A DNA stretch of 64,000 nt, from positions 5,001 through 69,000 of the forward strand of contig NC_092671.1 of NCBI RefSeq assembly GCF_964355755.1. The letters are read 5' to 3'. The notes below the pieces were generated by a model that had not been told where the DNA came from, ran no database searches, and saw only the letters and a list, made by a program, of their open reading frames with translations. Numbering within the stretch: position 1 is the first letter of the stretch; each line of letters begins with the position of its first letter. Source of the stretch: Antedon mediterranea. Taxonomy: Eukaryota > Echinodermata > Crinoidea > Comatulida > Antedonidae. A program made the position numbers and the translations under genes. Positions 2,795-53,168 of this stretch are shown piece after piece.

Positions 2795-5720
2795 ATGTTT
2801 TCAATTCTAAATATTGATCATTTTAATTACGAAGACGAAAATACAACCGCATTTAACTATAAGGAAAACTATTACTTTAGTATTGATACATTTAAATCCA
2901 CGTTCAGTCAAACGTCAACTAATAGTTTTTCTATGTTTGCATTAAATTGTAGAAGTATTGTTAACAAATTTGAAGAATTTAAAAATTATGTACCCTCTCT
3001 CGATTTTGAATTTAATGTACTAGGACTTACTGAAACTTGGCTTTCAAGCAAACATCACCTTGGTTTATATACACTTCCAAACTATACACCTATCTTTAAA
3101 AACAGAGAAACCCAGACAGGGGGGTGTGTAGCATTGTACATACACTCAAATATATCATATCAAATAAGAAATGACTTGTCTGCTATGATAAACGAGGGAG
3201 AGTGCATTATAATTGAATTAAAAAATAATGATAAATCAATTATATGTGGAATAATCTACAGGCCTCCTAAAGCCCATATTCCAACATTTAATAATCAACT
3301 TAGTGAATTAATGCACATGATAAACAATGAAAATAAAAAGGCATACCTAATGGGTGACTTTAACCTAGATCTACAAAAATATAACTGTGACAATAATGTT
3401 CAAACTCACGTAGACAACATGCTAACAGAATCTTTCATTCCACTAGTCAATAAACCCACTCGAATCACAAAAGATACCGCAACAGTAATTGACAATATTT
3501 ATACAAATTATCAGGAATTCCAAAATATTAACACAGGGATATTAGTTAACGACATATCTGACCACTTTGCAGTTTTCTGCATGGATGATTCAGAAAATTA
3601 TTCATTACCACGATCAGAAAAATTTATAATAAAAAGAAGCTATACTGATCAACAAAAACGGCAATTTAGACTTGAATTACAGGGCTATGATTGGCAATAT
3701 GTAACTAACATTGAAAATGCAAATGAATCATATAAACGTTTCTCAGATTCTTTAAAAACAATGATAGATAAGCATTTCCCACTAAAAAGAGTTAGGTTAA
3801 AAGTAAATACAATTAAATCCCCGTGGATAACATATGGAATTCAAAAATCTCTTTGTACCAAAAATAAATTATACATCAAATATAAACAGAAACCAACAGA
3901 TATAAATAAATCTAAATATAAGAAATACAAAAATAAGTTAACATCAATAATAAGAGAAAGAAAAACTACTTATTACAAAAATGAATTTGAAAAGCACAAG
4001 AGTAATATAAAGAAAACATGGGGTGTCATAAACTCATTATTAGGTAGGAAGAAACATCAAGACATGCCTCAAAAAATGAAAATCAACTCCCATCAACTTA
4101 ATGACCCAACATCCATAGCCAATGCGTTTAACACATACTTTATAAATATAGGTGACCAAATGACAGGTGATGATAACCGTAATAGTAACACCGAATATAA
4201 AATACAACATGACATTTTGAATTCAATGTTTTTTAGAGCTGTATCCGAGTCCGATATCATTAAATACATTAATGACTTAAATGTAAATAAGTCAAGTGGT
4301 TGTGATGACATTGGTACCTTTTATATAAACTCGGATATACTGGCTAAACCGTTATCTCATATAATCAATGTATCCCTTCAATCGGGTGTATTTCCTTGTC
4401 AACTAAAAATTGCTAAAACAATTCCTGTGTATAAAAAAGGAGCAAGGGAGAACATAGAAAATTATAGACCGATATCGATATTACCATGTATATCTAAGGT
4501 GTTTGAAAGGGTCGTATATGACCAAACAATCGCTTTTTTGTGTAAATATGAAATGTTACATGAATCTCAATATGGATTCAGGGCAGGTCATTCAACTAAC
4601 CACGCCCTCCTACAAGTCCTTGATAAAATAACAACAGCCGTTGACAACAAGCAATTTATGATTGGCGTATTTTTGGATTTATCCAAGGCGTTCGATTCAA
4701 TAGATCATGAATTATTGCTCACAAAATTGCCCCATTATGGAATAAGAGGCGTGGTTCTTGATTGGTACCGTAGCTACCTTAGAGAAAGACAACAATTCGT
4801 ACAAATTGGGAAGTGTCAGTCTGTAACCAAAATAATAAAACAAGGCGTTCCACAAGGGTCAATCCTTGGACCCCTGCTGTTTTTGATATTCATAAATGAC
4901 ATGTTTTCTGTAAGTAATGTCGTTGATTTAATAATGTTTGCAGATGATACGAATATGTTTTTACAACACAATGATATCGTCACTGCCTTTACAATAATGA
5001 CAAATGAACTAAATAAAATAAAATTGAGAAATGGTGTAAAACTAATAGATTAAATATTAATACAACCAAGACTACGTATATGTTATTTAGTGGAAAGAAT
5101 ACCAACATTGACACATCCCAATTTTTACTTTCAATAAATAGAGTTTCAATAGATAGAGTACCATATACTAAATTTCTCGGTGTCATCATTGATGAGAAAC
5201 TGAACTTTAGACACCATACAAATGCAGTTTCTTGTAAAGCATCCTCAATAATTGGTGCCATGTGTCATATAAAAAATTTAGTATCTACTCAAAAGTGTTA
5301 CTTACCATATGCAAGACACTTATATTACCAGTGTTGACATATGGTGTTATTGTATGGGGTGCGGGAAACAAAGACAATTTGGATCGCCTTCTTTTGCTTC
5401 AGAAAAGAGCTCTTAGGATTATTTGTAAGGTAGACTTTCATCATCCCTCTTCTCAGCTCTTTGTGAAAACGGGCACATTTAATATATTTGATTTATATAA
5501 AAACAGTGTTTTAAATTTTATGTTTAAATACCAAAAAGGACAACTTCCAAAATGTTTTAATTCTTTATTCAGTTTATTTGATAATTATCATACATATAAC
5601 ACTCGAAATAAAGACAATTATTGTATAAAATTAAAATCAACTAATATCGGTCAGCAAAGTATAGCATATACAGGACCTAAGCTATGGAATCAACTTATAA
5701 GAAATATAAGAGAGAGATGA
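2795..5720 (+). pseudogene. LINE ORF2: endonuclease/reverse transcriptase (two frameshifts)
   Basis: The main frame is open from 2795 to 5053 (752 residues). Its N-terminal part is an endonuclease/exonuclease/phosphatase domain, with ALNCRSIVNK, GLTETWLSS, GGCVALYI, IYRPP, GDFNLDL and ISDHFAVF in order. The reverse transcriptase follows, with NYRPISILPCISKVFER, QYGFRAGHST, LDLSKAFDSIDH, QGVPQGSILGPLLFLIFIND and the catalytic FADD box. After 5053 the frame changes to 5080-5337 (TKFLGVIIDEKLNF) and again to 5262-5720, which carries the typical LINE C-terminus YNTRNKDN...YTGPKLWNQL. Order and motifs fit the L2/CR1 branch of the jockey superfamily. All catalytic residues are intact in the first frame. 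Confidence 0.8.
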
Positions 5721-6135: not shown

Positions 6136-9100
6136 TTATATTAACTGATGATCTTTTAAGTATTTTTTAAGGACTTGTTCAGCTTCAATTTTGCCAGCCA
6201 TTTTATTTGCTTTTCCTTGAAACAGTCCATTTTTTAACACACCTTTGCCATCCAGCAGTTCAGATATCCTGTTTGGATAAAAGTACAGTATTCATATACA
6301 GAATAAAAGGGTTTACTACTTAGAAACTGACTGAACAACATGTTTAACAAAAGTTTTAAAACAGTTAAGTACAAGAAAAATCAAGAAAACACTTCCAATG
6401 AAATGTACTAATAAATAGGTATGGCAATAAAGAATCACTAAAGCACACTACATTTAAATAACTAGATGGTACGCTCGCTTCGCTCGCGTACCATCTAGTT
6501 CGTGCCCACAGATGGTTCTCGAATACATAGTAATTTCAGCGTAAAAAAAATGGCGATTTTAAATGTACGTACGGCAGGACTATAAAACATTGTCGTTTAC
6601 AGAAACAAATAGACACAATGATTTATGTAGTCAACCACAATTAGCACCTAGAAACTTGTCACAAAATGAGTTCAAATTTGTTATTTGTACTCATTTAAAC
6701 AAACCCAATTTTGTATCTATTAGAGTTTAGGGTTTTGTATCTAACATTAGAGTTGAGCGGTGGGGATGAGGATAGGTACAAAAAGGAAAATTTTTTTAAT
6801 ATATTCTTTATAATAAATTATTCTTTATATTTCTTTATTATCCACTCAGTAACGAAATATTTTTTTATAGGCCTATAAATAATATACCACTAAATAGAGT
6901 AAAACATTTCCGATTTAATACTTTATTAAAACTGTCACTGTCTCATGGTCGATTGAAATAGTAAAGTACCTTTAAAGACCACTAATACGTTTATATTTTT
7001 GTAATTATTAATTAATACAAATGTTGAGAAACAACTGACAGTATTAAAGTATTATATTATTATGTGTTTATAATCTAAAAGTAGGGGCTACCCACACTCA
7101 CAGTGATAAAGTTTATTAGTATATTTGTTTATATTATATCTAACAGTACCAACACACTTTTGATTCAAATGGCGATCAAACGTGGTTAATACCTATTTGC
7201 AGTATTGTATAGCATTACAATACTATTTCTGTTTATTCTCCAAGGGTCTATAAATTTACCTACTTGTGTTAAACCATGGAGGTATGCAAGTATGGTTAAA
7301 CCAAATAATTTGGAATGTTCCATTCATTGCAAATCAATACATTTGTATAAACGTATATTAAATCTATCAAAATAGTATTTTTTAAAGAAAATCGGCCTGT
7401 CTTCAACATTATGATGCTGTACTCGAGCTGTTCAACCGGTTTTCAGCCATTAAAAACAATTATCGTAGGAGGAGATAGGAAAATGCGAAGCATCTTCGTA
7501 TTATTGTATGCGGGTATTTTTCACGATGGACATGCATTAGACAGTGTATACCACGATCGGAAAACACCCCTATTTGGGGCAAATCGTTGAACCTAAATTC
7601 GTTTTAATTGTCAATAACTAATTATCTGACTCAATTTAATTAGTAAACAGGGTTACATCAGGTGGTTAAAATCAGTACCGAAAGTACGAACCAACTTTAT
7701 TATACCATCGAGTAAACATTCTAGAAGTAACGCGCGATTTACCGAATTTTGCCCTTACGTAAATTTATATATAGATACAATACTGTGTTGCCATTATAAT
7801 TATTCTTACTTTGGTGCTAGAACTTCTATGGCTGCTGGTGGTGCTGTTAAAAGATAAACCCCAGAAAGTTTCTCGTCGCCTCCAGTCAGAAACATCGACT
7901 GTGCCTAAGAAATAAACATGTGTTAGGATTAGGATAATACGTAAAACAGTATTTTCATTGTGCCTAAGAAATAAACATAACAAAACATAAGATGATAGTG
8001 TGATGACCTAAAATCAAACACACAGATTTCTGTTAATTTTAGTTTTGACAACATAAGATGATAGTGTGATGACCTAAGATCAAACACACATATTTCTCAA
8101 CAAAATGTCACACACTCTTGTTCAAGTTTTAAGAATTTTACACAGCAGGTGACAATTTGTTTGTCTTGTTGTCAGATAGACGTTTACACTACAGTTACTA
8201 ACCTTATCTCCAATTGCCTTTGCTACCATGTAAAGAAACTCCATATTTGCTTCTTTTTCATATTTTACAAAGACTGGTTCTCTTTCTTTTCTCTGTAAAT
8301 AAATCTCTGCTTGCATATTTGCAGCTAGTTTTAGTAATCTTGAGGATGTCTATAAATAATAAATTAAAAAAATGTTTTTATTATTATATTATATTACAAA
8401 CATATAAATTTAAACTGTAATTGTAATTTCTTTATTAGGTCTTATTTTGCCAAATTAAAGTTTTTTTTTAAATGTTAATAAATGCACTAATAAATGTAAA
8501 GTTTGCTTAAGTACTTGTGAACTATTTAATTACAATTTGAGCTCTATAAATAATATATCAGTAACTCTTTCCTGGTAATACAGGTTTTCCATGAACCAAC
8601 CTTATTCATATCCTTTACATTTTTCTTAAGTTTTTCTACAGCACAGATCTGCTCCTCATGAGTACACCTTTCAAAGAGAATAATCAAGTACTTTTAGCAT
8701 AATGACATTTTTTTAAATACAAGAAATGTCATGGCTATAAATAATTTATAATCTCTAATACTTACTTAACATGACAGGGTATTACAAAAAAGACATTATA
8801 CTGTAAAATTTATTTATTCTACAAGGACACCTGCAACTTACTTACTTAAGTAGGTTTGTGACTGCCTTTTCTGTCTGATATGATGTTCCAAGGTATTTTA
8901 AAAGACGATCACCGGCAACAAATACAATATTTGACTTTCCCTTTTTAGCTTTTGTTAATCCTAATAACTTGATCGACTAAAACAAAGTATAAAATTAAAT
9001 GTGTTTTACTATGCTATTTGCGATGATTTTTTAACAAGGTTATAGGAAATCTGTGTGTTTCTCAATAGTACATAAATTGTTCACTGCAATGAGAAAAGTA

Positions 9101-12100
9101 CAGTAATACTATTTTTATTTCTGCCATGTGGCTTTGCTGGAAGCTTTTATGAGCACATAGCCTTACAAATACAGTTCCTTCCCAAAAATGACAACAGTAT
9201 TACTTCGATATACAGTTGACATACAGTACCTGAAGGTGGCTTAGATTTGAGACATGAGTTCCACAACACATATTAGAGTCAATGCCCTCAATCTCAACAA
9301 CTCTTACAGGTCCAACATGATCAGCTGGAAGACCCCGTGTCCGTATCTAACAAGAAAGCACTACCATTTATTTTAGGAAGATATTCATACTACAGTATTA
9401 TAACCAACCAAAACTCTCTAGTTGCTATTAAAACAAATCTATTTTTAATCTATGAAGAGCCAACATTCCCCACTATGACAATTAAAAAACATTCTAATAG
9501 CATACCAACAACAACAGCTAGAAAGAAAAGTGTCTTACCTTTTTCATTTCATCTGTTTCCGGCTCCAGAACGTGCACATTAACAGGAATTGAATTTCTAA
9601 TCTGTTCATTAACAACAGATTCAATATGAAATAGTTCATCATCAGTTACTTTAGGAGTATTCAATTCAATTGTAGACACTTTCTCTCCTAAGTTCCTTCA
9701 AAATAATTAAAAATACTGTATGTAAATAAATAAATAAATAAAGCTACGCAAACACATGTCTGACACAATTTGGGACTTTCTTCCTCATTCTCATCTCTAA
9801 ATAATATTCGCCAAATAAATAACATTTTAAAAATGTGTAACTTTTTATTAAATTTTTACTTTTATTATATTAACTTAACATTTTATAATTCTAAGAGTTT
9901 TAATATTGTTTTCAATTTGTACATTATTGTGATGATGTAATCCAATCCTTCTTTTGTTAATTGCCCCATGAGGGATGGATAAACAATATACTGTTATAAA
10001 AAAATACAAAATGAAATATTGATACTATCTTTACAGTAGTTACATATTCAAAATATACAAGACATTATATTAAAACATTTTATAATGACTCTAAATGTGA
10101 ATAATATAAGACCAATTGAGTCCAGTGGCCAAGTTATAACGGAGGATAGCCATAAATGGCACATGTTGAAGGTAATATGTGCATATTTGCCTTTTTTCCT
10201 AATTGTTGGAAATCATTGTAAATGCAATATGTGTTATATTTTTTTTATACCCAAATAAAATAAATAAATCTAAAAGTCTTTCCAGAAGGCTATGTGTGCC
10301 TATCTGGCTTGTGCCAGATGTAGAGGTCCAACCATTCTCTATCGTGGATATGAATATATTTTGTTACTACTAATCAGGACGTGCGTTTTTCATCGCTCTT
10401 TATTAAAAATGGTTCTTACCATAATTATAATACAAGATCTAAAGACAAAATGAGACTCAGAAAATGTAATCGTACTTCTACTAGTTTTACTGTGTCATGT
10501 GTGGGACCCAAATTGTGGAATGACTTGAATTACGAACTACAAAGTACCAAATCAATATATATATTTAAATCATTGTTTAAAGAACATTTATTATCATTTT
10601 ACAAATTTTAAAAATAATACTTGTTGCAGGATTTAGCTTTTTTTATTATTTATGTTTTAGTTTTTTAGGCTAGTTAGGGACATAGGGGGACACAACTAAT
10701 CAAGCTCTTTTGAGTTTTTATGTGTTTCCTTTTCATCTTTTTTATGTTCTCATATATTGTTGTTGTATATTTTCATGATTGAGGTCGAGGATGAATAAAG
10801 AATATTTGAATTTGAATTTGAATTTGAAAGATGTTGTATGTATGCGACACTGACAAGCTATTACCTTGTTTGCTAAAAATTTATTATATATTCTTGTCCT
10901 TTGATTGGACAATTGTGGGTCACATGGCATTTGATTAAACAGACTATTAAACGATGTAATACCTTTTTTTCAGCTTTTTTGTATGAAAACAAATTTTCAT
11001 GCACATACAAAAAAAATTCTGAAGGGCAACTGAATGGCGCTGCTTTTGTATGATTTTGATTTAATTAATGGGAACAACTCTACAAGACGTGGAATCGTTG
11101 GAAAAAAAGCATTAGCCTAGATCAGTTTATGGGTGGCCTGCCGATTTTATTGCACTCATTATTGTATTCATTTTATTGTATAATAATATAGAACACACCA
11201 ATCAATTATGTTCACTGAAATAAAAACGTATGTCCTGTTTTATCCTGGTACTGTAATTGCTAAATCTTTCAAGCATTTGGGAATGTATCATATATCATTT
11301 TTTTTACAGTAAAAAAATGCTCTCCGGTAAGTTACTATTATAGAGGAACAACAAAATAATTGTATTACTCAACCAAAAATAATCCTGATGACTTACCATG
11401 ATGTTGTAGGCCAAGAATACAAACGCTCTGCTATAGCAGTCACTAGATGCTGGCCTATAAATATAACAAAAAAGTGCTGATGTCGTACCCTCTTTAAATT
11501 TTTTTAAATACAGTAAATAAGTTTCATGTAAACCGGCCATGGTGAGTTTCAATTGATTTATTTCTTCTTTTATAGTAAACACTGTTTTACATATTTAGAT
11601 TATTGCTGTTCAGTTTTTGAAGGCCTTCAGGTGCATATTTTAGGCAGCTTGAAACATCCAAAAATATGCGAGAAGGATTGCCTTGTTCTTGTAGGATTTG
11701 AGGATTGTCCTAATTCCTCTATGCTGTTTAATTTATGCCCTACCTAGGAGGGTGTGTTGAAGATTTGAGGATTGTCCTTCCTCTATGCCGTTTAATTTAT
11801 GCCCTCTGGCAGTCAGGGGGAGGTTGTGTGAAAGATTTGATGATTGTCCTTCCTCTATGCCGTTTAATTTATGCCCTCTGGCAGTCAGGAGGAGGGTGTG
11901 TGGAAGATTTGAGGATTTTCCTTCTTCTATACCATTTAATTTATGCCCTCTGGCAGTCAGGAGGAGGGTGTGTGGAAGATTTGAGGATTGTCCTTCCTCT
12001 ACGCCGTTTAATTTATGCCCTCTGGCAGTCAGGAGGAGGGTGTGTGGAAGATTTGAGGATTGTCCTTCCTCTATGCCGTTTAATTTATGCCCTCTGGCAG

Positions 12101-17769: not shown

Positions 17770-18930
17770 GTATATTTATTATTAGCGTCATTTCGACGAT
17801 ATCGAGAGCGTTCTCTACTTCTACGGAGCGCCATTTATGCCTTTATTTACTTCCGAAATAGAAATAGTACTACGGTAACGTAACTGGTTCAGTGGACCAA
17901 ATTTAGCACCAGTGGAGCACAGTGATATAAAATAGAAATAAATCACTGAATTTTAATATATTTTCGTATGTTAATACACTGTGCTCAAGTGGACCCAATT
18001 TGGAGCCAGGAGAGCACAGTGATATGAAATAGAAATAAGTCACTGAATTTTAATATCTTTTCGTATGTTAATACACTGTGCTCAAGTGGACCCAATTTGG
18101 AGCCAGGGGAGCACAGTGATATAAAATAGAAATAAGTCACTGAATTTTAATATCTTTTCGTATGTTAATACACTGTGCTCAAGTGGACACAATTTGGATC
18201 CAGTGGAGCACAGTGATATAAAATAGAATAAGTCACTAATTTTAATATCGTTTCGTATGTTATTACATTGTGCTCATGTGAACCCAATTTGGCGTCAGTG
18301 GATCACAGTGATATAAAATAGAAATAAGTCACTGAATTTTAATATCTGTTCATATGTTAATACACACTATGCTCTAGTGGACACAATTTGGATCCAGTGG
18401 AGCACAGTGATATAAAATAGAATAAGTCACTAATTTTAATATCGTTTCGTATGTTATTACATTGTGCTCATGTGAACCCAATTTGGCGTCAGTGGATCAC
18501 AGTGATATAAAATAGAAATAAGTCACTGAATTTTAATATCTTTTCGTATTTTAATACACTGTGCTCAAGTGGACCCAATTTGGTACCAGGGAAGCACATT
18601 GATATAAATAGAAATAAGTCACTGAATTTTAATATCTTTTCGTAGTTTTAATACACTCTGTGCTCAAGTGGACCCAATTTGGCACCAATGGGAGCATAGA
18701 GAAATAGTCACAAAAATACTTCTGGAATTCAAAAATATTTTAAACTTGGTATATGTTCAATATCGGTTACTCCACCGTAAACCAAAAGAAAAATTAGTTT
18801 CAAGCCATAATAATACACTGTTCTCCAGTGGATGCAATTTGGCGCCAGGGGAGCACAGGGAAATTGTCACATACAAAAACTTCTAGAAAAAATATTTCTC
18901 GAATTCAAAAATATTTCAAACTTGGTATAT
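17770..18930 (+). repeat. 96-bp satellite array, left arm of a large inverted pair
   Basis: About ten copies of a roughly 96-bp unit occur from 17890. Each contains 'cactgtgctcaagtggaccc', 'caatttgg' and 'gagcacagtgatataaaata', so CACTGTGCTC and GAGCACAGTG form a palindrome within the unit. Units at about 18181-18370 and 18375-18570 form a duplicated dimer. The shoulder 17770-17880 ('gcgccatttatgcctttatt') reappears inverted at 27670-27770. Confidence 0.85.
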
Positions 18931-26430: not shown

Positions 26431-26576
26431 TGCAACTTTGTTTCTGATTTAAAAAAAGGTAGGCCTACACTTGACATTTACAATCCTCAAAATATCTCTC
26501 TTTCAAAATAAAAGAAAAACAACATTCATTATTTGACATTTAAAAAAAAATTCACTGGTGCCAAATTGAGAGATTG

Positions 26577-27780
26577 AAACTTGAGTGACTTTATTTCTAT
26601 TTTATATCACTGCTCCCCTGGTACCAAATTGTGTCCACTTTTGAGCACAGTGTTTTATACGAAAAGATATTAAAATTTAGTGACTTTAGTTCTATTTTAT
26701 ATCACTGTGCTCCACTGGGACCAAATTGGGTCCACTTGAGCACATTGTAATAACATACGAAAAGCTATTAAAATTTAGTGACTTTATTTCTATTTTATTT
26801 TTTTTATTAAACCTTATTTTGTGAGGGTGACCCTAAACAGCATATGCAGACAGTCAAAAACATATATGAAAAAACAGATGAACTATGTTAAAAAAATATA
26901 AAAATATATAATATATATATGTACTTAAATACAAAAATATAGCCTACAATACTATACCAAACGTTGAGTTTTTTCTTTTGGGATTAAATATTTTTTTAGA
27001 GCAGACTTAAAATTAGTTATTGTTACCGCATTCCTTAGTTTAGTGGCTAGCAAATTCAGGTATGTTGGTGCTCTGATGAAGCTGTTCTTAAAAGTTTCAG
27101 TTTTAGGGAAAGGGACGACAAATTTCCTCTCACTGACACTTCGGGTACATCGATGATTTGGAATTCTGGCAAGACGCAGGGCAAGGTATTCCGAGCAAGA
27201 CCATTTGCAGACCTGTAGGCAAGGCAGCCCAGTTATAGATGCATGTGATCTTGGACTGTATGAAGATTTAAGGTGTTGAAAATGTTAGTTCGTGGTGTGA
27301 GAGGATGAGCTTTAAGGATAATGCGAAATGCACTATTTTGAATGGTCTATATTCGGTCAATATTCGATCTGATTCCCCAAACACTACATCAATAGTCAAT
27401 GTGTGGGTAGAGGAGTATGGATGTGTTTTTATTAATGAAATGACCGAGCACGCGATAAGATTGAGATGGACAAGCCCAGTTTGGACCGGAGTTTATTTAC
27501 ATGAAAAGAAAAAGATAAATTTGAATCAATGTGAATGCCAAGATGTTTCTGTTTGTCAGTTTGTGATATGGGTATATACGAAACGATAATAAAAGTAGTG
27601 ACTTTTATTTCTATTTTATATCACTGTGCTACCCTGGTGCTAAATTGGGTCCACTTGAGCAGTTACTGTAGTACTATTTCTATTATTGAAGTTAATAAAG
27701 GCATAAATGGCGCTCCATATAGAAGTAGAGAATGCTCCAGTCGTCAGAATGACGCTCTGAATATACCTCTCTCTGTGCGC
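26577..27780 (-). repeat. 96-bp satellite, right arm of the inverted pair (split by a LINE)
   Basis: Minus-strand copies of the 96-bp satellite lie at 26577-26799 and about 27571-27660, followed by the shoulder 27660-27770 with 'aaaggcataaatggcgctcc', the reverse complement of the shoulder at 17800-17860. A truncated LINE lies between the two satellite parts. The arm is shorter than the left arm. Confidence 0.8.
26800..27571 (-). mobile_element. Truncated LINE inserted in the satellite
   Basis: Minus-strand translation gives late reverse transcriptase and C-terminal segments: KHLGIHIDSNLSF and ARIPNHRCTRSVSERK, then FIRAPTYLNLLATKLRNAVT, ending at a stop near 26935. The T-rich start at 26797-26807 is the tail end. 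Satellite sequence of about 40 bp ('acgaaa...ttatttctattttat') is present on both sides (26757-26799 and 27577-27619). Confidence 0.75.
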
Positions 27781-48200: not shown

Positions 48201-51200
48201 CTGTATCATTGCAATTTTAGAAAAGAGCACTGAAGTTACAAGGCCAAAAGATGAAGGAGAATCTGTTGAAAGAGCAGCAGAGAGATCATGAGCTTGAACA
48301 GGAACGTAAACTTATAGCCCAACCTGCACGCAGGTCTAATATTCTGTGATAAACAATTGATGCACTTGTTTACATCATAAAAGAGCAGCAGAAAGATCAT
48401 GAGCTTGAACAGGAACGTAAACTTATAGCCCAATTTTCACGCAGGTCTAATATTCTGTGATCAACAATTGATGCACTTGTTTACTTCATAAAAGAGCAGC
48501 AGAGAGATCATGAGCTTGAACAGGAACGTAAACTTATAGCCCAATCTGCAAGCAGGTCTAATAATCTGTGATCAACAATTGATGCACTTGCTTACTTCAT
48601 AAAAGAGCAGCACAGAGATCATGAGCTTGAACAGGAACGTAAACTTATAGCCAAACCTGCATGCAGGTCTAATATTCTGTGATCAACAATTGATGCACTT
48701 GTTTACTTCATAAAAGAGCAGCAGAGAGATCATGAGCTTGAACAGGAACGTAAACTTATAGCCCAATCTGCAAGCAGGTCTAATAATCTGTGATCAACAA
48801 TTGATGCACTTGCTTACTTCATAAAAGAGCAGCACAGAGATCATGAGCTTGAACAGGAATGTAAACTTATAGCCAAACCTGCATGCAGGTCTAATATTCT
48901 GTGATCAACAATTGATGCACTTGTTTACATCATAAAAGAGCAGCACAGAGATCATGAGCTTGAACAGGAACGTAAACTTATAGCCCAATTTGCACGCAGG
49001 TCTAATATTCTGTGATCAACAATTGATGCACTTGCTTACTTCATAAAAGAGCAGCACAGAGATCATGAGCTTGAACAGGAACGTAAACTTATAGCCCAAC
49101 CTGCACGCAGGTCTAATATTCTGTGATCAACAATTGATGCACTTGTTTACATCATAAAAGAGCAGCACAGAGATCATGAGCTTGAACAGGAACGTAAACT
49201 TATTAGCAGGGTTGCTAACTTCCATTTTTTATGAAGATTGTGCATTTTGTGACAAAAGCACCAAACTTGGCACAAACCTTCTTTAGGGTATATCTAACAA
49301 TCCTAGAAGGGGTGCCCAAAAATCGGAACAATTTAACGACGTCATTTGGACCACGCCCCTTTTTTTAGTATTACGTAATTAGGAGAAAACTTAAATTTCG
49401 TATATATATACCAAGTTTGGTATCAAATTAAAACTCATGACATGTACATTGCAATACACACATAAAAAATATATGATTTCTCTTCAGACGGAATATATAG
49501 GTCAAATAATGTAATTTTCTGTCATATTGAAGGGGATTTCAATCAAAACGCGCCAATATTGTGCTATGTTATGAACATTGTAGTTATAAGAACAACAACA
49601 TTCATTTTTGTAATAGAACTCCTAATATATATTTATCCTGTACCAGTTACTTTCCTTTAACATATAATTAGGAACCACTGAAAAAAAGTATATAAAACAT
49701 ATACTGTATCAAACTTGGCTCAATGATCACTGGACTAAGTAAACAGACAAAAGACCATTTGACTGACAATTATGGCGTTAGCATCCATAATAATACATGG
49801 AGGTGATAATCAACTTTACTTTTATGAAATTATTTATCTGGAAACAAACACTTATAATGGTACAGAGTTGCTAGATGACGAACAAGTTCCACGGCATGGG
49901 TAACAAAGACCAGTGCAAGAAAGACCTGCTGAACGGCACTTGCAGTTCCCTGAGCAAAAAGGCAACTTTTTGCAGCCACACTTTAGCAATTCCCTACATG
50001 CCTTGGATGCTTCAGGTAGTATGGTCCAGACTGTTGTCCATGTACTGCCGGTTTTAGTCCAACCAAAGTCTTCTGGTGATGGAGCATTCTGCTGTGGCTG
50101 TAGACTGGTGGTCCAAATGCTTGCTTGGTATATGGATCGGTTGGAATGCTGTAAAAGTGCATCCTGCAATAAACAATTTAAAGATTGGTGTTACCTTTTA
50201 ATGAAAGAAAAAAAATGAACCTGATAATAAATTATTAAACCACAATTGCTCCCCTTACCTGTGTAGGAGGAATGTTGTCCATTTTCCGTGCCTTTCTTAA
50301 AAAAAGATCTTGTCTTAGCTTAGTAAGACTTCTTAAAGTCTTGTAGTATAGATGACATGTAAACTCCTCTAGCAACTGGAATTGAGATGAGTTGACTCCT
50401 AGAGATTTGAAAAGGTGATGTGCCATGAAAAGAAAGGCTTCTGTGACTGCTGGAAATGAGCATGCGGAGTGTTTTGCTTTTCCGAAGAACTGGGATGTAC
50501 TGTAGTATCGGACACAGTAAATGCATGAAAAACTGGCAGCCCTCTTGACTTATCCTCTCCTAGGTTATGGCAGATGGTATTTATATTAAAATATTGGAAG
50601 TGCTTACCCATGCCAAATGCGACCCAGATACACGTAACCAGGATAACAGGCTATTAGATTGCAGAAAATACCAACCAGGATAACAATGGCATCAGTATCA
50701 GCTGTACGCACCAAAATAACCCTGCTACCTTTCTTTAAGGCATCATCAATGTGAATGCACATCCTGGAGTCGGCCTCTTCATGGTCGCAGATTGACATAG
50801 GTTGAGTAGATGTCCGGGATACAACAGACTCGCCTACAGGACATAATAAATATCAAGAATTACTTACTAATTTAATATGCCTTTTAAATTAATTATTGGT
50901 ACGAAACTGTATAAGTAAATTAATCGTTTGGTTACAAACAAAATAAATTAGTATGTATCATAATAAAACTTACCTGATGTAATGTAAACTTCTTTGCAGT
51001 CAGAGTAATCATGGGTAGACACCTTCGTAGTTAAAAAGTTAAAGAACTCCTCTTCATTTACTGTATCTTTCAGAAAGTCTTGGAAATTCCATGGAATCTT
51101 TGTTTGTCCCCCAACTTTCCTCCTGACGTACCCCTTTTCCTCTTTTTTCTCTTGTAGACTGCTTAAGACTATCTGTTCTGTAAGTGTCCCACACTATATC

Positions 51201-53168
51201 AATTCTGTTACTATTCTGCAGCTGCTGTCTGGTCCACGGTAGAAAGACCTGTCATACAAATGATACTAGAATAACGATCCGCATATAGAAGTGACCAATT
51301 ATGTGGTGGTTAAACAATAGATACAATCCTGAATGCAAAGAAATGTACTCACCTTATCACCGTAGTCATAAAATATAAATGCATGTTTGCTGGAAAGAGC
51401 ATGGACAATAGCAGCTCCGTCAAACACCTTTACGTCAAAATATGTAGGAGGTTCAGGTTGGCCTTCAGTCTCCAAATGCTGTAGCAACTCAGACTTCTTA
51501 GTTGGTAGTCGAAGTTTTCCATTTACTGCCAAAGAGGGTGGCCATGGCTGGTTTTAATGCATGAAGAAGTCTTCCAAATCTCCATCACGAGATTGACTTT
51601 CAATATACAGTCGACTGAATAGGCTGCAGTCACTTTTTTAACTCTTAACTTGTTGCTTTGTTTTGGCCACTGATTTTGACCGTGGTGTGTTGAACAACGG
51701 CAGCTTATTCTGTTTGATGGCTTGTTGAATTGCAACACTTCTGTCGAGAATAACTTCCTTGAAATATTTTTGGTACTGGGTAGTACCTACATCCTGAATT
51801 GTACGAACTGTCACTACTGGACTTTCATTATCACAATCTCGAGCATCCAAGACCAGAAGTTCTGAACAATTATCGAGGAATGGGTTGCCTGCATTTGAAA
51901 TTGTTTCGTGTAGCCTGTTGACCTGAACTTTAAATGTTTCTTGGGTAGAGAGTCCTTGTTCTCGTTGCTGAAAGTCATTCGGATCATCAACCATGAACTG
52001 ACTCTCGAACTCTGTAATCAGTCTCGCTTGTTCTGGCCTCGCCACCATCCACCTCTTAAACGCTGTTGGATTTTCAGTAAGTCCGACTGCACCCCCAGTT
52101 CCTTTTACTAATTCGTTGTTCTGCTCATGAGATTGGTCAATGGGCATACAGGAGAACTTTCTTGTTGTTTTTGGAATAACCCAGAACTTCTTAAAATCTT
52201 CTTTGATGTTTACAGGTAGTGTATTCATGTCCCTAATGTGGATGGGAATTGCCTTTTTGCTCAGGGAACTGCAAGTGCCGTTCAGCAGGTCTTTCTTGCA
52301 CTGGTCTTTGTTACCCATGCCGTGGAACTTGTTCGTCATCTAGCAACTCTGTACCATTATAAGTGTTTGTTTCCAGATAAATAATTTCATAAAAGTAAAG
52401 TTGATTATCACCTCCATGTATTGTTATGGATGCTAACGCCATAATTGTCAGTCAAATGGTCGTTTGTCTGTTTACTTAGTCCAGTGATCATTGAGCCAAG
52501 TTTGATACAGTATATGTTTTATATACTTTTTTTCAGTGGTTCCTAATATTATGTTAAAGGAAAGTAACTGGTACAGGATAAATATATATTAGTAGTTCTA
52601 TTACAAAAATGAATGTTGTTGTTCTTATAATTACAATGTTCATAACATAGCACAATATTTGCGCGTTTTGATTGAAATCCCATTCAATATGACAGATAAT
52701 TACATTATTTGACCTATATATTCCGTCTGAAGAGAAATCATATATTTTGTATGTGTGTATTGTAATGTTTTAATTTGATACCAAACTTGGTATGTATATA
52801 CAAAATTTAAGTTTTCACCTAATTACGTAATACCAAAAAAAGGGCGTGGTCCAAATGACGTCCTTAAATTGTTCCGATTTTTGGGCACCCCTTCTAGGAT
52901 TGTTAGATATACCCTAAAGAAGGTTTGTGCCAAATGTGGTGCTTTTGTCACAAAGTGCACAAAAAAAGTGCTAAGTTACCCTGCTATATAGCCCAACCTG
53001 CATGCAGGTCTAATATTCTGTGATCAACAATTGATGCACTTGTTTACTTCATTTGATGATTGTGAACTACACTTTCTTTAATATAATAGGGAAGATGCAA
53101 TAAAAGAAGTCATCAAAACATTATTGATACAAGCCAAGGATGATGATGTTTGTAAAGATGCTAGTTAA
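45282..53168 (+). CDS. BLOC1S6: BLOC1S6 (pallidin), BLOC-1 subunit, 6 coding exons
   Basis: Coiled-coil subunit of the cytosolic BLOC-1 complex, which sorts cargo to lysosome-related organelles. Exons 45282-45510, 45936-46065, 46741-46828, 47262-47348, 48221-48333 and 53090-53168 join in phase to 241 residues. Against human pallidin (172 residues) it has a longer acidic N-terminus, and it adds about 25 residues after the usual RPAKRM-like end (here QPARREDAIKEVIKTLL). Matching core: LARLSDGFLQKIQPELD, QELTRNQRVLMETVQQE, AKVYYQKLVNVKKDM, KRALKLQGQKMKENLLKEQQ. The intron after 46828 starts GCAAGT (a GC-AG intron). The other introns are GT-AG. The last intron (about 4.76 kb) holds the exon-derived tandem array and the inverted-repeat element. 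An acceptor just before the ATG (45279) suggests an upstream non-coding exon. Confidence 0.92.
47705..48010 (-). mobile_element. LINE C-terminal fragment in BLOC1S6 intron
   Basis: The minus-strand open segment contains HAYNTRINHYFNLAIPPYR and SFSGAVIWNDLPLELR, the conserved end of LINE ORF2 proteins (compare YNTRNKDN...GPKLWNQL at 5590-5700). 5'-truncated; about 300 bp remain. The adjacent 'aataaaacattg' (47683-47694) is probably 3' tail sequence. Confidence 0.7.
48266..49203 (+). repeat. 111-bp array made from the BLOC1S6 exon 3' half plus its 5' splice site
   Basis: The 3' two-thirds of the 48221-48333 exon, its GT donor and 45 bp of intron repeat about nine times, at roughly 48266, 48379, 48491, 48602, 48713, 48825, 48936, 49047 and 49158. 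Each copy has 'gagcagcag(a/c)gagatcatga', 'acaggaacgtaaacttatag' and the donor CAG|GTCTAAT. The remaining end is at 52990-53053, beyond the inserted element. Units 3+4 and 5+6 form a duplicated dimer. Later copies lack an acceptor, so they are not complete exons. Confidence 0.92.
49204..49965. repeat. Left terminal inverted repeat (contains the CXC exon end)
   Basis: Reverse complement of 52249-52986, with small indels and scattered substitutions. The inner part (49852-49965) encodes, on the minus strand, the last 38 codons and stop of the PIN-like/CXC gene. Homology to the other arm stops exactly after GGCAA at 49965. Confidence 0.85.
49852..52339 (-). pseudogene. PIN/FEN-like nuclease-type protein with C-terminal CXC domain (broken)
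   Basis: Exons on the minus strand: 52339-51353, 51248-50974, 50833-50259, 50163-49852. Seen in order: DQSHEQNNELVKGTGGAVGL; PTYFDVKVFDGAAIVHAL; a frameshift near 51110, then KIPWNFQDFL; CDHEEADSRMCIHIDDAL; VRTADTDAIVILVG; FHAFTVSDT, then a frameshift; and the cysteine-rich tail KCGCKKLPFCSGNCKCRSAG with LSCTGLCYPCRGTC. The spaced acidic motifs (D..., EEAD, DTD, ...D) resemble the metal site of PIN/FEN-type nucleases. The nine-cysteine tail fits the tesmin/TSO1-like CXC DNA-binding motif. Two in-frame stops (51640-51638 and about 51556) and two frameshifts make it a pseudogene. The first 30 codons lie in the right inverted repeat and look non-native. I recall related proteins in cnidarian, mollusc and echinoderm genomes, without an assigned function. 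The nuclease role is inference. Confidence 0.75.
52249..52986. repeat. Right terminal inverted repeat
   Basis: Partner of 49204-49965. Its inner end provides the apparent ATG (52339-52337) and first 30 codons of the pseudogene's open frame, read antisense to the CXC codons. Confidence 0.85.

Follow-up and report, generated by a model that had tools for sequence, protein, structure and literature searches.

Positions 49204–52986 of the window, the whole 64,000-nucleotide stretch analyzed here, are a real and exact insertion of a DNA transposon of 3,783 bp. The element is probably a non-autonomous cut-and-paste transposon of the Academ superfamily, within its AcademX (nuclease) lineage, where it is placed by published descriptions rather than by Repbase sequences. 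AcademX is the best available name because the probable encoded nuclease and the 3-bp target duplications fit the published profile of that lineage. The window element thus most likely represents a new family within a known superfamily and not a new class.

The element starts with TAGCAGGGT. Its left end, TAGCAGGGTTGC, lies at 49204, and its right end, ACCCTGCTA, has its last base at 52986. TAT stands on both flanks (49201–49203 and 52987–52989) as a 3-bp target-site duplication, and the empty site AAACTTATAGCCC runs uninterrupted through adjoining copies of a 111-bp satellite, whose array, with the empty target sequence, occupies 48269–49203. The original prediction had given these boundaries, the TAT duplication and the empty satellite site exactly. 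Elsewhere in the window, two separate tandem arrays (17891–18696 and 26569–26798) have units of about 95–97 bp that appear by eye to be related on opposite strands.

In the best single alignment, the two inverted arms are 95.5% identical over 728 bp, with ungapped pieces of 520 nt at 98%, 128 nt at 96% and 78 nt at 95%. As foreseen, the arms are long and inverted, though at about 730 bp instead of 740–760 bp. The left terminus (49204–49237, plus strand; TAGCAGGGTTGCTAACTTCC...) and the right terminus (52963–52986, minus strand; TAGCAGGGTAACTTAGCAC in the inward reading) have their first nine bases in common and differ over the next 25–35 or so, a difference conserved across the 15 copies compared. 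The left arm proper extends over 49238–49965 on the plus strand, and its inner ~110 bp are the CXC-coding 3′ end of the element's gene; the right arm (52249–52962, minus strand) carries an inverted copy of this coding end in its inner part. A few dozen bases inside the end, at about 49254–49275, a palindrome-like stretch close to AAAGyACCAAAnTTGGcA was noticed by eye, as were similar stretches near the ends of three relatives of the window's lineage (L024, L025 and L026). Such a stretch might be a putative transposase-binding site.

Further copies were sought in the 354-Mb genome assembly. The left arm yielded 220 candidates, of which at least 40 were scored at 95–100% identity. With up to two mismatches allowed, a 20-base left-end pattern occurs at 41 places (40 exact, one with two mismatches; none for the backwards control) and a 19-base right-end pattern likewise at 41 (35 exact, six with one mismatch; two for the backwards control). 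These ends pair into 36 elements of 2.9–5.3 kb, of which 35 measure 4.03 kb or less, leaving five left and five right ends unpaired. Fifteen siblings, picked from copies with gene matches, were cut out and examined together with the window copy. Exact 3-bp target duplications of varied sequence flank all 15 of these 16 copies that have both ends in hand; the right end of the remaining copy, L015, lies just outside the extracted stretch. L015 also has an extra arm copy on its right side (2867–4151), which is either duplicated or nested. The ends counted here and the broken gene described below agree with the expectation of a decayed, multi-copy DNA transposon with long terminal inverted repeats.

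The gene of the window copy, on the minus strand, survives as a remnant that corresponds to no more than the C-terminal half of a longer protein. Its last exon is at 49852–50169, and the reading frame appears to break near 51115. MTNKFHGMGN..., which looks like the start of the protein, is a false start derived from the right arm, where the CXC-coding end is read in antisense; a plus-strand ORF in the left arm begins with the identical 30 residues. A Pfam scan of five window ORFs gave nothing useful, with neither a helicase nor an XPG family at E≤1. Two in-frame stops interrupt the remnant on the minus strand. The stop at 51554–51556 is common to all five siblings of the window's group (L005–L009) and absent at that codon from all nine siblings of the other group, while the stop at 51638–51640 occurs at its codon in none of the 14 siblings compared, two of which are gapped there. 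Among the first 171 codons that were compared, L005–L009, L010 and L011 each have one stop at another position; the other seven siblings have none in the shorter part compared. The dN/dS values of the 14 remnants against the window range from 0.38 to 2.27 on few changes; among full-length genes, four pairs gave 0.44–0.67 and five pairs were saturated, with too few changes for these values to carry weight. The window's group therefore multiplied with its gene already broken and was probably mobilized in trans. The truncated gene in the copies read, together with this common stop, shows that the window family is non-autonomous.

The siblings fall into two groups that differ in the orientation of the interior. 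The window copy and L005–L009 are 98–100% alike, and a second group (L010–L014 and L016–L019) is 97–99% alike internally. Identity between the groups drops to 73–78% over the whole alignment because the interior orientation differs: the gene segment is inverted relative to the window in nine of the 14 siblings, namely every member of the second group. In these nine, some 350 bp at the end of the window's interior are also missing. The positions of the asymmetric ends are unchanged in the siblings with an inverted interior, and both forms are multi-copy. The interior may have been flipped by template switching or by recombination of one long arm with the other, giving two forms, both of which would then have spread. 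Flipped isomers of this kind suggest that the orientation of the gene is irrelevant to movement.

The window gene has numerous longer homologs in the same genome. With its fragments as the query, at least 172 exon matches were obtained, including stop-free frames of 614–1,064 aa; another count of the homolog search gave about 1,043 first-look candidates and 89 scored matches. Ten relative loci were analyzed, a first set of seven (L020–L026), in which six have open frames of 614–1,064 aa and L026 has 479 aa with one stop, and a later set termed lineage B (L032, L033 and L034). Seven of the ten have TAG...CTA ends and exact 3-bp duplications: ATT in L020, CTA in L024, TAA in L025, AAT in L026, ACA in L032, CCA in L033 and ACA in L034. 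Among the others, L021 showed no element arms, and L022 and L023 have arms with an outer end that could not be placed. The expectation that the gene lies between inverted ends with 3-bp duplications therefore holds at these seven loci, with one or both ends missing from view at the other three. The arms of the relatives match those of the window in short stretches only, the best being 59 bp at 81% (L025), and the element lengths range from 3.9 to 9.9 kb, the longest apparently with an insertion in one arm. Next to the element of L026, an adjoining sequence (6681–9581) holds an open frame of 967 aa that encodes a P-loop (GEGGIGKTT) and leucine-rich repeats and looks NACHT-LRR-like by eye. In lineage B, the elements L033:662–8403 and L034:709–8450, each of 7.7 kb with a 1,247-aa open frame, are 99.97% identical at two sites with different 3-bp duplications, which shows that this lineage moved recently.

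These longer relatives reveal the half that the window copy has lost. N-terminal of the nuclease they carry a transposase region related to DUF6589, and the window retains the C-terminal part of this region at 51641–52247 on the minus strand (IPIHIRDM ... DQSHEQNN ... AVGLTENP), its N-terminal half being missing. The element had been thought to show no standard transposase; the transposase missing from the window copy is this lost half. L024 has two successive ORFs, the first of 484 aa and Cys/His-rich, the second of 1,064 aa with the transposase region, the nuclease region and the CXC tail; we infer that the two form one gene. Nuclease and transposase region occur in a single open frame in L024, L025, L022 and L033. 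The transposase regions of the window lineage and lineage B match each other in hhalign with a probability of 100 and an E-value of 1.1e-41. Lineage B passes the Pfam DUF6589 cut-off of 27 bits with 31.8 and 28.3 bits; among four ORFs of the window lineage with the region, two scored 16.8 and 14.8 bits against the same cut-off and two gave no match. The conserved acidic positions and the place of the region in the elements suggest that it is a DDE transposase.

The nuclease region follows. Its beginning in the window lies at 51299–51532 on the minus strand, with the first conserved Asp (KVFDGAA) at about 51419–51421, and a motif resembling the I-region of FEN/XPG nucleases (EEADSR ... ADTDAIVIL) is located at 50691–50780 on the same strand. 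The acidic residues D73, D117, E210, D212, D236, D238 and D295 (L024 numbering) are invariant in all six diverse sequences compared. Within a set of 21 nucleases, single copies depart from this pattern (the first Asp in L062 and the last in L063), and fragments lack some parts. The distance from the Glu motif to the DxD motif is 18–24 residues in the transposon nucleases and 16 in ten archaeal FEN1 sequences, L049 having been left out as an eleventh locus without a usable frame. The distance from DxD to GTD is 49–62 residues in the correctly placed rows and 47 or 58 in the archaeal set; among the 21 rows, a simple motif pattern misplaced the last motif in six and missed the Glu motif in two. 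Profile comparison with all 21 sequences aligned GCDTTSaFxGKGK with GTDYNeGvxGvGPkkA of FEN1 at an hhalign E-value of 0.011 (0.66 for the reversed control); with E. coli PolI added to FEN1 the value was 0.057 (reversed control 0.29), and global mode was useless. A profile from the first six sequences gave 0.29 against archaeal FEN1 and 0.12 with E. coli PolI, against 0.8 for the reversed control. HMM scores exceeded those of every shuffle for only two of the 21 transposon nucleases (2,100 shuffles) and one of the ten archaeal sequences (1,000 shuffles). No Pfam XPG_I or XPG_N match was found at E≤1 in the window ORFs and relatives, and the best hit of the nuclease alignment in a PDB profile search was unrelated (E 0.81). 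A FEN1-family query of bacterial and archaeal genomes found no relatives in a first scan and two loci in a second; the viral contigs searched contained no relatives. The nuclease domain is probably FEN/XPG-like, as judged from its sequence motifs. The original prediction of a PIN/FEN-like nuclease is therefore upheld in motif order and spacing, with weak profile statistics. Both the acidic motifs with their spacing and the cysteine tail that it had described are present in the minus-strand gene; the CXC-like tail, CGCKKLPFCSGNCKCRSAGLSCTGLCYPCRGTC, lies at 49882–49980 on the minus strand, and a match to Pfam TCR, below threshold, appeared in one full relative only (L033).

The Academ superfamily and its AcademX lineage reportedly go back to Kapitonov and Jurka in 2010 and Kojima in 2020. 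The Academ nuclease is named XPG, and a Cys8 finger is described for Academ. The copies of the window family that were compared and the relatives with placed ends have terminal inverted repeats and ends that start with TAG. The same genome contains another DUF6589 element, L031, with a second copy at L037. It has a DUF6589 ORF (73.4 bits) with a C2H2 finger and, on the opposite strand, a separate Helicase_C ORF that looks RecQ-like by eye. The left end of L031/L037, TAGACTTGCTCCAAGTCT / TAGACTTGC, begins with TAG, and no clear right end or target duplication was recognized in the two copies. The arrangement resembles that expected of AcademH, and KolobokH also has a helicase. Comparison of our transposase profiles with the single helicase-partnered DUF6589 protein in hhalign gave no match, so the link between them rests on the shared Pfam DUF6589 hits. 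Academ is an accepted superfamily according to the part of a published account consulted (PMC4455052).

Three other identities were weighed against AcademX. An unnamed superfamily apart from Repbase Academ, whose hallmarks would be TAG...CTA ends, 3-bp duplications and a DUF6589-type transposase fused with a FEN-like nuclease and a CXC tail, appears unlikely. Pfam gives the transposase region no name, and the likeness to Academ is one of description, not of protein comparison; moreover, the CXC tail goes without mention in the consulted parts of four Academ accounts (PMC10045372, PMC10799480, PMC10294476 and PMC4455052). Titles and abstract openings in the literature on Academ with XPG, on DUF6589 and on CXC/PIN/FEN transposons yielded no paper describing the transposase/nuclease/CXC protein. 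Against such a superfamily, a nuclease with 3–4-bp duplications is the profile given for AcademX in the consulted part of PMC10045372, a helicase-partnered DUF6589 element resides in the same genome, and bivalve Academ elements, described as abundant, are similarly long, with a curated mean of 5,565 bp (PMC10294476, in part). The fit with AcademX also runs counter to the earlier suggestion of an undescribed transposon class.

The other two identities are far less probable. Harbinger and CACTA elements also make 3-bp duplications. For Kolobok, the consulted part of one account (PMC9587614) describes KolobokH, in which the transposase is paired with a RecQ helicase, and KolobokP, with a nuclease and duplications of 3–4 or 4–5 bp. 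A derivative of Kolobok (KolobokH and KolobokP included), PIF/Harbinger or CACTA is nevertheless very improbable: Kolobok generally duplicates TTAA, and KolobokP has a nuclease of His-Me finger type and long terminal direct repeats (PMC9587614, same part), in contrast to the inverted repeats here. The ends read TAG and not CACTA, and no Pfam match to the transposases of these groups was obtained. Equally remote is the capture of a host nuclease/CXC gene by an unrelated long-TIR transposon, which had been the second option of the original prediction. The window copy alone, lacking a complete transposase, could be read in this way. However, the gene belongs to a large family, with the numerous homologs counted above; those examined reside in elements with largely different arms and the same TAG/3-bp signature (seven of ten loci), and the nuclease shares one open frame with the transposase region at four loci.

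For the preferred AcademX assignment, a mechanism may be outlined. The DUF6589-like region, as a putative DDE-type transposase, would cut the ends and insert the element with a 3-bp stagger. During excision or repair, the FEN-like domain may act on structured ends or on flaps by trimming or nicking them, and DNA binding would fall to the CXC tail and the N-terminal Cys/His modules. A related full-length protein would move the window family in trans. The family probably originated through interrupted gap repair, in which the N-terminal half was dropped and the 3′ end of the gene was copied inverted into both arms. A bolder proposal, which we regard as unlikely, is an unnamed lineage whose transposase incorporates a FEN-like flap nuclease and CXC tail that determine the 3-bp stagger or carry out end processing, and in which inversion of the interior between the long arms allows two isomers to propagate together. 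These findings illustrate how a single copy may pass for a new class although it is just the C-terminal half of a known gene type. A recent full-length relative and broken, probably trans-mobilized siblings in one genome form a natural experiment, in which the contribution of the FEN-like domain to Academ transposition can be tested.

Compared with known systems, the protein resembles FEN1/XPG nucleases in the order and spacing of its acidic motifs, in a VxD...K...R..R motif and in a GxD...GxG helical motif; it differs in falling below Pfam thresholds and in its fusion with a transposase region and CXC tail. The C-terminal tail matches the cysteine spacing of Tesmin/TSO1 CXC (PF03638), with 16.7 bits in L033, but stays under the Pfam cut-off of 23.5 and spans about one repeat only. 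Kolobok differs from the window family, in which the duplications are 3 bp of varied sequence and not TTAA. AcademX and AcademH are described, in the consulted part of the source, as making duplications of 3–4 bp and 9–10 bp, respectively, related to the encoded nuclease or helicase (PMC10045372). AcademH is approached through the helicase-partnered element L031/L037, which has its Pfam DUF6589 match in common with lineage B, but it carries a helicase in place of a nuclease, and its longer duplications contrast with the 3 bp of the window family. AcademX, as far as that published description goes, is alike in its short duplications, its length of several kilobases and probably its encoded nuclease, and the window family departs from it in being truncated and non-autonomous, with the 3′ end of the gene inside the arms.
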